The position numbers and the translations under genes are program-made. From Halococcus salsus (GTDB taxonomy: Archaea > Halobacteriota > Halobacteria > Halobacteriales > Halococcaceae), in assembly GCF_009900715.1 (NCBI RefSeq), contig NZ_JAAAJC010000004.1:1-64000 (forward strand): DNA of 64,000 nt, given 5' to 3'. Shown here piece by piece: positions 6,143 through 24,098 of this stretch (the first letter of the stretch is position 1; each line of letters opens with the position of its first letter). A model generated the notes under the pieces. That model did no database searches. It worked only from the letters and a program-made list of their open reading frames with translations, and was not told the origin of the DNA.

Positions 6143-7390
6143 TCACGTCTCGATAGCGGCCGCCGGACGGCCACGCGACGAGTCGTACGAGAGCGCGACG
6201 ACCCGCCCGTCGCCGTACATCACGAGGACCTCGTCGGTCCCATCACCATCGAGGTCGACGAGCGTCGGATGCGTCCAGACGGCGACGTCGCGTTCGTAGG
6301 ACGCGAGGCGGTTCCCGTTCGCCGGGTCACGGACCGAGACGGCCCCGCCGTTCGTCACGGTCACGAGTTCCGACTCACCGTCGCCGTCGAGGTCCCCGAG
6401 TGCCGGCGGCGGGGTGACCGAATCCTCCGTCGAGAGACCCGCGTGCCACTCGACCTCGCCGGTCCGCGCCGAGAGCGCGTCGAGGTTGCCGTCGCCGGTC
6501 GTGACGTAGAGTTCTTTCGACCCGTCCCCGTCGCCGTCGCCGAGCGCGTGGATCGCGGGTCGGTTGTTCGAGGTGTTCCAGCGCCACTCCGTCGCCCCGG
6601 TCGCCCCGTCGAGCGCCGCCACACCGTCTCCGGTGGCGACGAACAGCGTCTGCGCCCCGTCGACCGACCCGCTCGCCGCGAAGGCGGCGTAGACCGAGCG
6701 CTCCCAGACGACGCTCCCGTTCGGTTCGTAGAGCGTGACGTTCCCCGGCGCGCTGACGGCGACCTCCGGACCGCCGTCACCGTCGAAGTCCGCCCTCCTC
6801 GTGTCGGCGGTCACGCCGGCCGCGACCCGGTCCCGCCACGCGACGGTTCCGTTCGGCCGCACCGCGAACACCGAGCCGTTGAAGTCCGCGACGACCGCTC
6901 TACGGGCCGGTTCGGCGAGGACCGCGGGCGCGCTGTAGCCGAACGAGGTGAGGTCGAAGCGGAGGGTTTCGGTCCCATCGTTCACGTCGTAGCCGTAGAG
7001 CACGTTCTCGGTCGTGGGAACGAGCACGTCCGGTTCACCGTCGCCGTCGAGATCCGCGATCGTCGGGTCGCCGATACCGTGAGTGGCACACGACCGGTTC
7101 CGGATGGTCCGCTCCCACTCGACCGTCCCAGTACCATCGAGCATGACGAGCGCGCACTTCGCACCGGACGAACCGCCGACCGAACTCACTGGGGCGGCGA
7201 TTATCGTCCGATTGTTGGTCCGGACCGCGGCCACGGAGTGGTGGTTGACCTGGTTCGGCCGCGGGGTGTCGCTCACCCACTCCTCGGTGAGCGTCCCACC
7301 GGACGCCGTAACCGTATCGTAGCCGACCACCGCCGCCCCGGCGAGCGCGGCGACGACGACGGCCACGACCAGCCCGGTCCGCACCTGCAT
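6143..7390 (-). CDS. Membrane-anchored FG-GAP/PQQ-type beta-propeller protein (copy 2)
   Basis: The 415-residue paralogue has the same plan: an N-terminal helix at residues 6-24, NHH at 49-51, Cys79 and Cys101, then repeated Asp-rich loops (IADLDGDGEPD, GDGDGDGSKE, VDLDGDGTDE) in a propeller-like series. The C-terminal segment VMYGDGRVVALSYDS is shared almost unchanged with copy 1. The 63-base gap to copy 1 contains no obvious strong promoter, so co-transcription is possible. No catalytic motif is visible. Confidence 0.8.
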   Translation of the reverse strand: MQVRTGLVVAVVVAALAGAAVVGYDTVTASGGTLTEEWVSDTPRPNQVNHHSVAAVRTNNRTIIAAPVSSVGGSSGAKCALVMLDGTGTVEWERTIRNRSCATHGIGDPTIADLDGDGEPDVLVPTTENVLYGYDVNDGTETLRFDLTSFGYSAPAVLAEPARRAVVADFNGSVFAVRPNGTVAWRDRVAAGVTADTRRADFDGDGGPEVAVSAPGNVTLYEPNGSVVWERSVYAAFAASGSVDGAQTLFVATGDGVAALDGATGATEWRWNTSNNRPAIHALGDGDGDGSKELYVTTGDGNLDALSARTGEVEWHAGLSTEDSVTPPPALGDLDGDGESELVTVTNGGAVSVRDPANGNRLASYERDVAVWTHPTLVDLDGDGTDEVLVMYGDGRVVALSYDSSRGRPAAAIET

Positions 7391-15962: not shown

Positions 15963-16223
15963 TCAGGCTTCCTCGTAGTTATGGTCTCGGCGCTTGCGGA
16001 CGCGGCGCTCCAGCTCTTCGGCGATCTCCTCACGCTTCCCTTCAGAGGTATCGTCGGGCACAAGCATCCCACGCCCACCGGTGCGGGTACGCTTCTTCAC
16101 GACGATACCCTCATCTGAATCTACCCAGACGACCTCATCGCCGGGCTCTAAGTCGTATTTTTCGCGAAGGTGCTTCGGGATCGTTGCTTGTCCCTTCTCC
16201 GTGACACGTGTGGATTCGCTCAT
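15963..16223 (-). CDS. vapB: AbrB/SpoVT-type antitoxin (VapB family)
   Basis: The 86-residue protein has an N-terminal swapped-hairpin AbrB DNA-binding domain (TRVTEKGQATIPKHLREKYD, then LEPGDEVVWV) and a basic/acidic C-terminal helix (KREEIAEELERRVRKRR) that should wrap the toxin. It would neutralise VapC and repress its own operon. A perfect 7-bp inverted repeat lies 6 bases before its ATG, in a position to serve as operator on a leaderless promoter. Confidence 0.87.
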   Translation of the reverse strand: MSESTRVTEKGQATIPKHLREKYDLEPGDEVVWVDSDEGIVVKKRTRTGGRGMLVPDDTSEGKREEIAEELERRVRKRRDHNYEEA

Positions 16224-19589: not shown

Positions 19590-19889
19590 CTAGTCGCTTC
19601 CCGGCCCCTCTCGGGGACTGACGGGACCCTCGTCGCGGTCGGCGATCGTCCGGTGGCGTTCGATGGTCACCGTGTAGGCCTCGCTCACTCCCTCGTCGGA
19701 GGCCGCCAGCAGGGGGTCGGTCGGTTCGATGTCGCACACGCTCCACCCCGCCTTCCCGAGCGTCGTCGTCACTTCGTCGGGGACGGTGCGGACCCGTTCG
19801 TCGTCGGCTGGTCCCGTGGCGTCCGTCGGGAGGTCGATCGTCCGAACCCGTGGTTCGTCCCTGAACCAGCGTCGTAGTCTCTCGAGCAT
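19590..19889 (-). CDS. Hypothetical acidic protein
   Basis: The 99-residue product begins MLERLRRWFRDEPRVRTIDL; ATG 19889 is preferred over the upstream ATG at 19961 because the added 24 residues are Arg/Pro-rich. No transmembrane segment or catalytic motif is visible. Strand-like segments at residues 40-65 and 75-85 (WSVCDIEPTD, EAYTVTIERHR) suggest a small alpha/beta domain. It is 129 bases upstream of the tail-end of the Dps gene pair on the same strand as that pair but downstream in transcription. Confidence 0.5.
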   Translation of the reverse strand: MLERLRRWFRDEPRVRTIDLPTDATGPADDERVRTVPDEVTTTLGKAGWSVCDIEPTDPLLAASDEGVSEAYTVTIERHRTIADRDEGPVSPREGPGSD

Positions 19890-20018
19890 CACTGACTGTG
19901 GTCGTGTTCGATACTCGTTCCGCGGACGCTTAACCGTAGGCAATGAGGAAGCGTACTGCACCGTTTCGCACTCGCCCGTCGTCCCGTTCTCCGGGCGTGC
20001 AGGGGTCTCGAAGGCGTT

Positions 20019-20597
20019 CTACCGTCGAGAGGCCAGCACGTCGCTCCGAACGAGCGTGTCGCCGGCGAGGCACTTCGCGAGCGTGTCACCGTCGTCCTCC
20101 AGGGTCGGGAGGTGTCGCCGGAGGATCTCGCCCGTTCCCGTATCGCCCAGCCGCTCGGCCAGCTCGATGTGCTCTCGCATCCCCACGACGAGCGTCGCGT
20201 AGCCGTCGAGGTCGCGGGCGAGCGACGATCGGACGTCGTACCGGTGGGCGGCCTCGATGTCCATCGGCGCGTACTGGCGGATACCCATCGGCCCACAGAC
20301 GGGAACGCCGCCGAGCGCGTGAACCCGGACCGCGACCTCGTCGGTGATCGTCGAGAGCCGGTCGGCGGCGTCCGCGAGGAACGCCTTCAGGAGTTCGAAC
20401 TCGGGCCCCTCGACGCACCACTTGTGTTTGCGGACCTGGTTGAACAGGAGGTAGAGTCCCGAGACGTCACGATTGAGGGCCTCGACCACCTGTTCGGCCG
20501 CTTCCCGTTCGATCCCGAGGGCGTTGTCGGTGACCGTCCCCCACTCCTGACGGAGATGGACCGGGTCGGGGCTGCGGAGGTGGGGCGCGCTCGCCAC
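20019..20597 (-). CDS. Dps-like ferritin-fold protein lacking ferroxidase residues
   Basis: The 192-residue product has the Dps/ferritin four-helix plan and clear relatedness to haloarchaeal DpsA (LNRDVSGLYLLFNQVRKHKW, YDVRSSLARDLDGYATLVVG). The residues that form the Dps ferroxidase centre are altered: His next to Trp is Lys (KHKW), the second His is Lys (ELLKAFL), and the Glu of the D---E pair is Val (TDEVAVRV); only the Asp remains. It may therefore form a shell subunit without iron oxidation. The GTG at 20597 is 2 bases after the stop of the other Dps-like gene, so the two are probably co-expressed and may co-assemble. Confidence 0.8.
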   Translation of the reverse strand: MASAPHLRSPDPVHLRQEWGTVTDNALGIEREAAEQVVEALNRDVSGLYLLFNQVRKHKWCVEGPEFELLKAFLADAADRLSTITDEVAVRVHALGGVPVCGPMGIRQYAPMDIEAAHRYDVRSSLARDLDGYATLVVGMREHIELAERLGDTGTGEILRRHLPTLEDDGDTLAKCLAGDTLVRSDVLASRR

Positions 20598-20599
20598 GG

Positions 20600-21175
20600 T
20601 CAGCGCACCTCCTCGGCGCGGACGAGGGTGTCGTCCTCGAGGAACTCCTCGACGGTCTGGGCGTCGTCCTCGAGGACTTCGAGGTGTTCGCGGAGGCGCT
20701 CCGCCGTGTCGGGGTCGCCGAGCTCCTCCGCCAGCCCGATGTGTTCGCGGAGGCTCACGACCAGCACCGCGTAGCCGTCGAGGTCCCCTTCGAGCGAGGT
20801 GCGCACGTCGTAGAGGTTCTCGGCTTCGAGGTGGACCCCGGCGCGCGCCTGGATCGTCGGCGGCGTGTTCGGCGGGATGCCGCCGAGTTCGACGATCCGT
20901 TCGGCAAGGTCGTCGTTGATGTCGCGGGCGCGTTTGTAGGCGGCTTCGAGGAACTCGCTCACCTCCTCGTGTTCGGCACCCTCGACGGTCCAGTGGTGTT
21001 TTCTCAGCAGGTAGAACAGGTTGAACGACCCGGCGAAGTCGACCCCGAGCGCCTCGACCAGCTTCTCGGCGACGTCGCCGGGGATGCGGAGTTCGTTCGG
21101 TTCGAGCGTCTCCCATTCCTGAAGCCGCTCGCCGGTCTCGGGCTCGCGGACCAGTCGACCGTATCTCGTTGCCAT
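20600..21175 (-). CDS. DpsA-like ferritin-fold protein
   Basis: A 191-residue relative of haloarchaeal DpsA with LFYLLRKHHWTVEGAEHEEV, RARDINDDLAERIVELGG and YDVRTSLEGDLDGYAVLVVS. Three of four ferroxidase ligands are present (His before Trp, Asp and Glu of DDLAER); the second His is Ser (EEVSEFL). Dps proteins store iron and remove peroxide inside the cell as 12-subunit shells. It is longer than usual at the N-terminus by about 15 residues. ATG 21175 is preferred to 21205. It is the first gene of a two-gene unit with the degenerate paralogue. Confidence 0.85.
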   Translation of the reverse strand: MATRYGRLVREPETGERLQEWETLEPNELRIPGDVAEKLVEALGVDFAGSFNLFYLLRKHHWTVEGAEHEEVSEFLEAAYKRARDINDDLAERIVELGGIPPNTPPTIQARAGVHLEAENLYDVRTSLEGDLDGYAVLVVSLREHIGLAEELGDPDTAERLREHLEVLEDDAQTVEEFLEDDTLVRAEEVR

Positions 21176-23266: not shown

Positions 23267-23518
23267 CTACTGCACGGCGTCGTCGTCGGTGACGATGTCC
23301 TCGGCGACACTCCGAACGTGCCGTTGATGCTCCGAGGACGTGTTCGTCGCTCGTGCGGCTTCGAGCTGGTCGTCGACCAGCGCGTTCTGTTGTGGGCCCC
23401 AGACGTCCGGTGGCTCGCGTTCGATGTATCGTACCCACTGTTTGATCGCTTCTATGCGCCGTTCGCGGTTCGCTTCGTGCTTCGTGGTGAGTGTTTCATG
23501 CACGTCTGAGTCGGTCAT
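23267..23518 (-). CDS. Small helical protein, putative partner of the nucleotidyltransferase
   Basis: The 83-residue, charged, mostly helical protein (RERRIEAIKQWVRYIEREPP, then ARATNTSSEHQRHVRSVAED) has no recognised domain. Its ATG lies inside the end of the nucleotidyltransferase gene (23-base overlap), which implies translational coupling. Short proteins in this position are frequently toxin-antitoxin partners. The local base composition is less GC-rich than the neighbours, as in the VapBC region. Confidence 0.6.
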   Translation of the reverse strand: MTDSDVHETLTTKHEANRERRIEAIKQWVRYIEREPPDVWGPQQNALVDDQLEAARATNTSSEHQRHVRSVAEDIVTDDDAVQ

Positions 23519-24098
23519 ATTTGTCCTCGATATCGAGTCGCTTGGCCCACTGTTCGAGCCGCTGGGTACTAAGGTTTGGCTCGAAGAGCGTGTACAGGTG
23601 CACCGCGTCCTCGACGTCCTTCTGCGCCCCCAGATAGAGCTTGTACGCGATCTGTAGTTCCAGCGGCCCGATCGGGATCGTCTCTTCACCGACCTGCGCC
23701 GTGATAGCGGTCCGTAACGACGCTCGGTCGAACTCATCGCCGACGAACTTCACTTCCAAGTGCGGAGTCATCTGGTCTTCCGGTGCAACCCAGATGTTAT
23801 CGCCGTTCGAGAGCATTTCGTACGCGGACGCGAGTGGCATCGCGGGACCCCAGAATCCTTCCGCATCGAGCGCCGCCGTGAGGTCGTCGACCTGTTGTTC
23901 AGTCAGCGATTCGACGAGCACATCGATATTCTGCGTTGCCCGTGCTCGCCCGGAGAGAATCGCGACATAGCCAGCAACGAAAACGTGGCCAATGTCGAAC
24001 CGTTCGAGAAGTCGTGAGAACGCGATCGCTAGCTCGTCAAGCCGGTTTGGGTCTCGATCGACGACAAGGGTTTCATCGGTCAGCGTGACGCCACTCAT
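23496..24098 (-). CDS. DUF6036/AbiEii-like nucleotidyltransferase
   Basis: The 200-residue protein resembles small nucleotidyltransferases of the DUF6036/AbiEii type: a Gly-containing strand-turn (HVFVAGYVAILSGRARATQN, then IDVLVE), an EVKFVGDEFDR strand, and the C-terminal region PIGPLELQIAYKLYLGAQKD, then VEDAVHL, which is diagnostic of this group. In the usual R-T-D-I-D motif the first Asp is Asn57; Asp59 is present, so activity may be altered. Such proteins are commonly the catalytic part of type II/IV toxin-antitoxin or phage-defence pairs. The overlapping 83-residue gene downstream is the likely partner. Confidence 0.75.
   Translation of the reverse strand: MSGVTLTDETLVVDRDPNRLDELAIAFSRLLERFDIGHVFVAGYVAILSGRARATQNIDVLVESLTEQQVDDLTAALDAEGFWGPAMPLASAYEMLSNGDNIWVAPEDQMTPHLEVKFVGDEFDRASLRTAITAQVGEETIPIGPLELQIAYKLYLGAQKDVEDAVHLYTLFEPNLSTQRLEQWAKRLDIEDKYDRLRRA

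Follow-up and report, generated by a model that had tools for sequence, protein, structure and literature searches.

Paired Dps-fold paralogues of Halobacteria as candidate non-catalytic subunits of a mixed mini-ferritin

Dps proteins are described as homo-dodecamers in the available part of one account (PMC9103930), and the accessible text of a 2026 paper credits all of them with ferroxidase centres (PMC13319912). The window, by which we mean the whole 64,000-nucleotide stretch of Halococcus salsus DNA analysed here (contig NZ_JAAAJC010000004.1, positions 1 to 64,000 of the forward strand), contains two adjacent Dps-like genes whose products carry an incomplete set of ferroxidase ligands. The locus raises the question of whether such proteins are redundant copies in decay, self-sufficient proteins with another task, or parts of a common complex. 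Comparison across the class assigns them to two old Dps clades in strict partnership, which have lost most of the ferroxidase centre yet stay under selection; NCBI naming has kept both out of sight by calling every member "DpsA".

The gene pair and its relation to DpsA

The pair, referred to below as B and C, is laid out as follows.

20600–21175, minus strand: gene B (P0001), ATG start to stop, 191 amino acids; Dps-fold paralogue, first of the pair
20598–20599, minus strand: 2-nt gap between the stop of B and the start of C
20019–20597, minus strand: gene C (P0002), GTG start, 192 amino acids; Dps-fold paralogue, second of the pair

The open frames bear out the initial observation of two tandem Dps-like genes 2 bases apart. 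Both products match the Pfam Ferritin family (PF00210), and both exceed the curated cut-off of 170 bits for the haloarchaeal DpsA family NF041388 of NCBIfam, with 180.7 bits for P0001 and 185.7 bits for P0002; by an E-value criterion (E ≤ 1e-10) rather than that cut-off, the family is matched by 38/38 C and 36/36 B sequences. The top solved-structure match of both is Halobacterium salinarum DpsA, 1moj (HMMER E 7.8e-42 for P0001 and 1.6e-38 for P0002), to which each aligns without gaps. AlphaFold2 models reach a mean pLDDT of 81.7 for B and 86.1 for C, and a Foldseek search with the C model returns 1moj_A as top match (TM 0.77/0.81). Taken together, the models, the Foldseek result for C and the HMMER alignments predict a four-helix Dps fold for both proteins. 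They do not belong with the bacterioferritins, as the NCBIfam matches are to DpsA or Dps families only and the top solved matches are Dps-type.

B and C have the same fold and the same length as H. salinarum DpsA (1moj, 1tjo and others; NF041388), and duplication of DpsA is their likely source. They are nevertheless paralogues and not orthologues of DpsA with an intact ferroxidase site, since they form separate clades and occur beside further Dps proteins. In the genome of the window a canonical DpsA with the full His, His, Asp, Glu set is encoded away from the pair (G000:C1:548291-548815), and there are two further ferritin-like genes besides these three. The number of dpsA copies is not to be equated with iron-oxidising capacity. 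A plasmid of Halarchaeum sp. CBA1220 illustrates the naming: it carries B and C behind a third Dps gene, A, and the three are annotated as three dpsA genes in a row.

Loss of the ferroxidase ligands

In DpsA (1moj) the ligands H52/H64/D79/E83 are accompanied by E75. The four ligand positions correspond to H61/S73/D88/E92 in P0001 and to K59/K71/D86/V90 in P0002, and the codons concerned are these.

20993–20995, minus strand: B codon 61 (CAC, His), at H52; Tyr (TAC) in the related loci L056 and L057
20957–20959, minus strand: B codon 73 (AGC, Ser), at H64
20924–20926, minus strand: B codon 84 (Arg), at E75; a charge reversal
20912–20914, minus strand: B codon 88 (Asp), at D79, retained
20900–20902, minus strand: B codon 92 (Glu), at E83, retained in the window's B
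20421–20423, minus strand: C codon 59 (AAG, Lys), at H52
20385–20387, minus strand: C codon 71 (Lys), at H64
20340–20342, minus strand: C codon 86 (Asp), at D79, retained
20328–20330, minus strand: C codon 90 (Val), at E83

Alignment to 1moj thus agrees with the ligand sets first read from the letters, His/Ser/Asp/Glu and Lys/Lys/Asp/Val. That the missing ligands sit at shifted positions, which would have undone this reading, is ruled out by the gap-free alignments with the Halobacterium protein.

In all 42 sequences of canonical DpsA and of A, positions 52, 64, 75, 79 and 83 are His, His, Glu, Asp and Glu (42/42 each). Position 52 in B (n=38) is Tyr in 34, His in 2 and Phe in 2, and in C (n=40) Tyr in 29, Lys in 3, His in 2, Arg in 2 and other residues in 4, so that B and C mostly lack the first His; the second, at position 64, is absent throughout (0/38 B, 0/40 C). 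Glu83 is kept in 8/38 B sequences, the others having mostly Val or Ile, and in 0/40 C, whereas Asp79 persists in 37/38 B and 40/40 C. Glu75 of DpsA has given way to Arg in 37/38 B and to Thr, Ser or Ala in 40/40 C, and position 72 is Lys or Arg in 28/38 B and Asp in 38/40 C. C has invariant residues of its own, Asn46 and Thr78 (40/40 each). Neither clade therefore presents the His, His, Asp, Glu ligands of an inter-subunit ferroxidase site. These counts, like the tree below, are taken without the B fragments of L085, which are frameshifted, and the B of L093, whose start is not aligned.

The sequence-only reading had taken the two genes as progressively degraded and had named a mixed shell with one active and one structural subunit as a possibility. 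The gradient does not survive comparison with the nearest relatives, since the B codon at position 52 is TAC in L056 and L057 and CAC in the window, and the simplest account of the window's His is that it replaced Tyr recently. Tyr52 is common to B and C, an indication that loss of the first His preceded the separation of the two clades. Nor is the division of labour supported: with His at position 52 in 2/38 B and 2/40 C and at position 64 in none, neither protein is likely to be the active subunit, for which the third protein, canonical DpsA, is the candidate. The B protein of the window, which combines H52, D79 and E83, may have kept weak activity. Positions 72, 75, 79 and 83 are spaced 3–4 residues apart on one face of helix B, and the charge changes would plausibly affect the former ferroxidase interface. 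We also considered a light-chain-like retained function at E154, the nucleation residue of DpsA in the part of PMC12532284 available to us; this proved uninformative, as the position is already variable in canonical DpsA.

Pairing, inheritance and selection

C-type proteins occur in 40 of 391 genomes of the class, with 54–94% identity in the other genomes (P0002 search, among the matches listed). B-type proteins (E ≤ 1e-48) likewise occur in 40 of the 391, and these are the same 40 among the matches listed, a coincidence that rests on listed best matches at the stated E-values; for one genome, G233, the match listed in the B search is its C gene, its B being frameshifted. At the thresholds used and among the matches listed, the 391 genomes hold no B without C and no C without B. 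In 40/40 loci, counting the window's, the Dps gene nearest to C is B, placed upstream and in the same orientation. Carriers belong to 20 of the 86 genera of the sample, and within the window's own family to 2 of 18 genomes. A profile search of contigs from named genomes, where a single-protein query had found no match, recovered 26 loci in 15 named genera and one unplaced Natrialbaceae MAG, ranging from Halolamina, Halarchaeum and Haloarcula to Natronococcus. B is upstream of C in all 26, and 8 of them are genomes beyond the 40. (Profiles A1 and A2 were built without L089 and L083, and A2 also without L085 and L093.) Among 294 sampled genomes of the phylum, 4 score above 300 bits with the C profile, and the 46 that match it at E ≤ 1e-40 are without exception members of the window's order. 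Among viral contigs the pair has no relative. Ten DpsA-like matches of 44–47% identity (L121–L130) were suspected of being single B or C genes; all have the full His, His, Asp, Glu set and are canonical.

The two genes are also closely joined. Among 38 pairs with both starts assigned, the spacing from B to C is −4 nt in 22, +2 in 11, +1 in 4 and +6 in 1. Halogranum rubrum (L083, L114) encodes both in a single open frame of 451 codons, in the order B–C, joined by an acidic linker some 35 residues long, and in Halogranum amylolyticum (L108) both domains likewise lie in one frame; the two Halogranum fusions may represent one shared event. Fusion is the strongest single hint that both products act in one complex, and the fused proteins are a ready-made test object for co-assembly. 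The sequence-only reading had made its mixed shell depend on conserved pairing, and on this point it has fared well, with B and C in the same 40/391 genomes among the matches listed, adjacent in 40/40 and fused in Halogranum.

The maximum-likelihood tree of 123 sequences (38 B and 40 C among them) unites B in one clade (100/99), C in another (100/99) and both together (100/100). B and C are two old, well-supported sister paralogue clades and not a case of private decay. Their distance matrices correlate with r=0.91 over 38 loci (0/2000 permutations as high); over the 23 loci with A, r is 0.97 between B and C and 0.71 for both A–B and A–C. Sixteen tandem A sequences group with B and C (98/89), and nine others belong to another DpsA lineage. 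Together, the correlations and the tree indicate that B and C are passed on as a unit, with at least one exchange of A.

That these genes are redundant dps copies on their way to becoming pseudogenes would agree with the loss of ligands, with a frameshifted B in Halarchaeum rubridurum (L085, G233) and with a pair that has been split (L089). Such neutral decay is very improbable, given that dN/dS is well below 1 in 16/16 B and C pairs, that frames are intact in nearly all loci, that invariant residues distinguish the clades, and that the pair has spread over 20/86 sampled genera. Between the window and L056, dN/dS is 0.093 for B and 0.126 for C; over the selected pairs to which the estimates refer, it ranges from 0.093 to 0.428 for B (8 pairs), from 0.077 to 0.265 for C (8 pairs) and from 0.035 to 0.166 for A (5 pairs). 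Both B and C are under purifying selection. In the split locus (L089, G245) about 400 nt of other DNA stand between B and C, at about 6645–7047, and both genes are on long branches; it reads as a pair in the course of being lost. The split and the frameshift show that the pair can be lost.

B and C might instead each form a homo-dodecamer of its own, without normal ferroxidase activity, and be merely co-expressed, protecting DNA or the nucleoid or binding another metal or ligand. Dps proteins without the usual site exist in Lactococcus lactis, the whole Dps fold is kept in B and C, and D79, still in place beside a Tyr or Lys in position 52, could serve to bind another partner. Moreover, tandem paralogues can be co-expressed without mixing, a point that tells against any mixed shell. 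We consider separate homo-dodecamers unlikely, because occurrence in the same 40/391 genomes among the matches listed and the B–C fusions argue for one complex. DNA binding through basic tails is disfavoured as well, the N-terminal tails of both B and C being close to neutral, with a median net charge of 0.

A possible mixed shell, gene A and the upstream palindrome

That B and C act jointly, without catalysis, within a Dps shell is supported by their strict pairing and close spacing, by the fusions, by their shared inheritance and by the selection on both. We propose, with a probability of roughly 0.6, that B and C ("DpsB" and "DpsC") serve as two specialised subunits without catalytic function in a hetero-oligomeric mini-ferritin, which may also include DpsA. 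The comparative support for their joint action is strong as genomic evidence goes, and co-occurrence in the same 40 genomes, adjacency and the Halogranum fusion make mixed assembly a good hypothesis. The mixed shell of the sequence-only reading was thus right in direction and partly supported, and wrong in giving activity to the first gene. Counted against the proposal are the Glu83 that the window's B shares with seven other B sequences and the want of the upstream palindrome, described below, before the window's pair, as well as the split and the frameshifted loci.

The events would have begun with the duplication of an ancestral haloarchaeal dpsA. In one copy the His residues of the inter-subunit ferroxidase site would have disappeared, and a second duplication of that copy would have given B and C, inherited since as one closely coupled unit. 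B and C would dimerise across the two-fold interface of Dps, the normal position of the iron, with side chains taking the place of the metal: Arg75 and Lys72 of B, Asp72 and Asp79 of C, and Tyr52 of either. Such dimers would then assemble into a shell of the Dps type, either by themselves or in company with catalytic DpsA dimers responsible for oxidising the iron, and the shell might store or buffer it. In its most specific form, an obligate B–C heterodimer with a metal-free, salt-bridged interface (Arg75/Lys72 against Asp72/Asp79) would combine with DpsA dimers, where present, into a three-component mini-ferritin; we offer this version tentatively.

A part for DpsA is suggested by gene A, whose His, His, Asp, Glu set is intact and which stands directly upstream of B in 25/40 loci, 12–13 nt before it in 14/25 and −1 to +5 nt from it in the other 11. 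The 15 loci without a linked A, the window's among them, come from genomes with at least three Dps matches, at least one of them besides B and C. One version of the non-catalytic-subunit reading, narrower than it and compatible with it, would place A, B and C in one shell, their ratio tuning iron oxidation against storage; in the window species the His residues of DpsA and the D79 and E83 of P0001 could even complete sites across an A–B interface. This arrangement is possible but not the one we would bet on. The upstream position of A and its close spacing, the presence of a third Dps in each of the 40 genomes, the grouping of 16 tandem A sequences with B and C, and the D79 and E83 kept in P0001 speak for it. 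A is unlinked in 15/40 loci, which makes a part for DpsA less certain than the association between B and C; A also evolves out of step with its neighbours (r 0.71 vs 0.97), nine tandem A sequences come from another DpsA lineage, and the window's pair lacks the palindrome that precedes its genome's DpsA.

At a minimum of 10/12 matches, this palindrome, TTTAGG-N4-CCTAAA, is found in the 200 nt upstream of the leading gene for 24 of 39 clusters (the fused L083 being left out of the scan), whereas 0.4% of shuffled regions reach this score. It precedes 20/25 clusters that begin with A and 4/14 that begin with B, and it is present in 25 of 26 canonical dpsA loci scanned whole (L001, L008–L022, L121–L130), L129 alone being without it. 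We take such sites to go with haloarchaeal iron regulators of the DtxR/Idr type. Two sites precede the DpsA gene of the window's genome; the window itself has none with up to 2 mismatches, and its B–C pair has apparently left that control. In L001 there are sites on either side of the genome's own dpsA, at 1161–1210 before it and at 2208–2257 behind it, and the adjacent gene may be served by them as well. Four loci without A (L070, L074, L080, L082) still have, about 110 nt ahead of B, a palindrome together with a TATA-like stretch, in some of them followed by an ATG near the expected start of A; it looks as if A had been deleted and its promoter left in front of B.

If B and C co-assemble as proposed, they would bring a mixed-subunit cage to the Dps branch of the ferritin superfamily. 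In mammalian heavy/light ferritin, itself a hetero-oligomer, the ferroxidase centre belongs to the H subunit (PMC12532284). It is a fair analogy of principle, in that catalytic and non-catalytic subunits come from one superfamily. That ferritin is a 24-mer with an intra-subunit site, whereas B and C belong to a family of 12-mers with an inter-subunit site and comprise two inactive chains, always paired, with an active third chain often but not always linked. The closest experimental precedent is given by the hetero-oligomeric bacterioferritins of Magnetospirillum (Bfr1/Bfr2) and Shewanella (SoBfr12). There two paralogues, one with a mutated ferroxidase centre, build a common cage (PMC6529640, PMC12120770), and cells are protected by this mixed form only (PMC6529640; see also PMC12120770). 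Those cages are 24-mers with haem; B and C have the Dps fold, and both lack the site. Nostoc punctiforme has five Dps proteins with differing ferroxidase centres and so also has several paralogues per genome, but those discussed in the accessible text have a metal centre, and no obligate tandem pair with loss of the site is described there (PMC6675082). Titles and opening lines of abstracts on haloarchaeal, paralogous or hetero-oligomeric Dps in open-licence PMC describe no such pair.

Apart from the Dps genes, no gene family recurs in more than 7 of the 40 flanks as a conserved partner of the cluster. In the window, an open frame of 123 amino acids (19590–19961, minus strand) begins 57 nt downstream of C on the same strand; its conservation beside other B–C pairs was covered through this general flank comparison only. 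Farther out, the frame at 15963–16223 (minus strand, 86 amino acids) is presumably an AbrB/VapB-type antitoxin, and that at 23496–24098 (minus strand, 200 amino acids) resembles what we take to be a nucleotidyltransferase of the toxin–antitoxin type.
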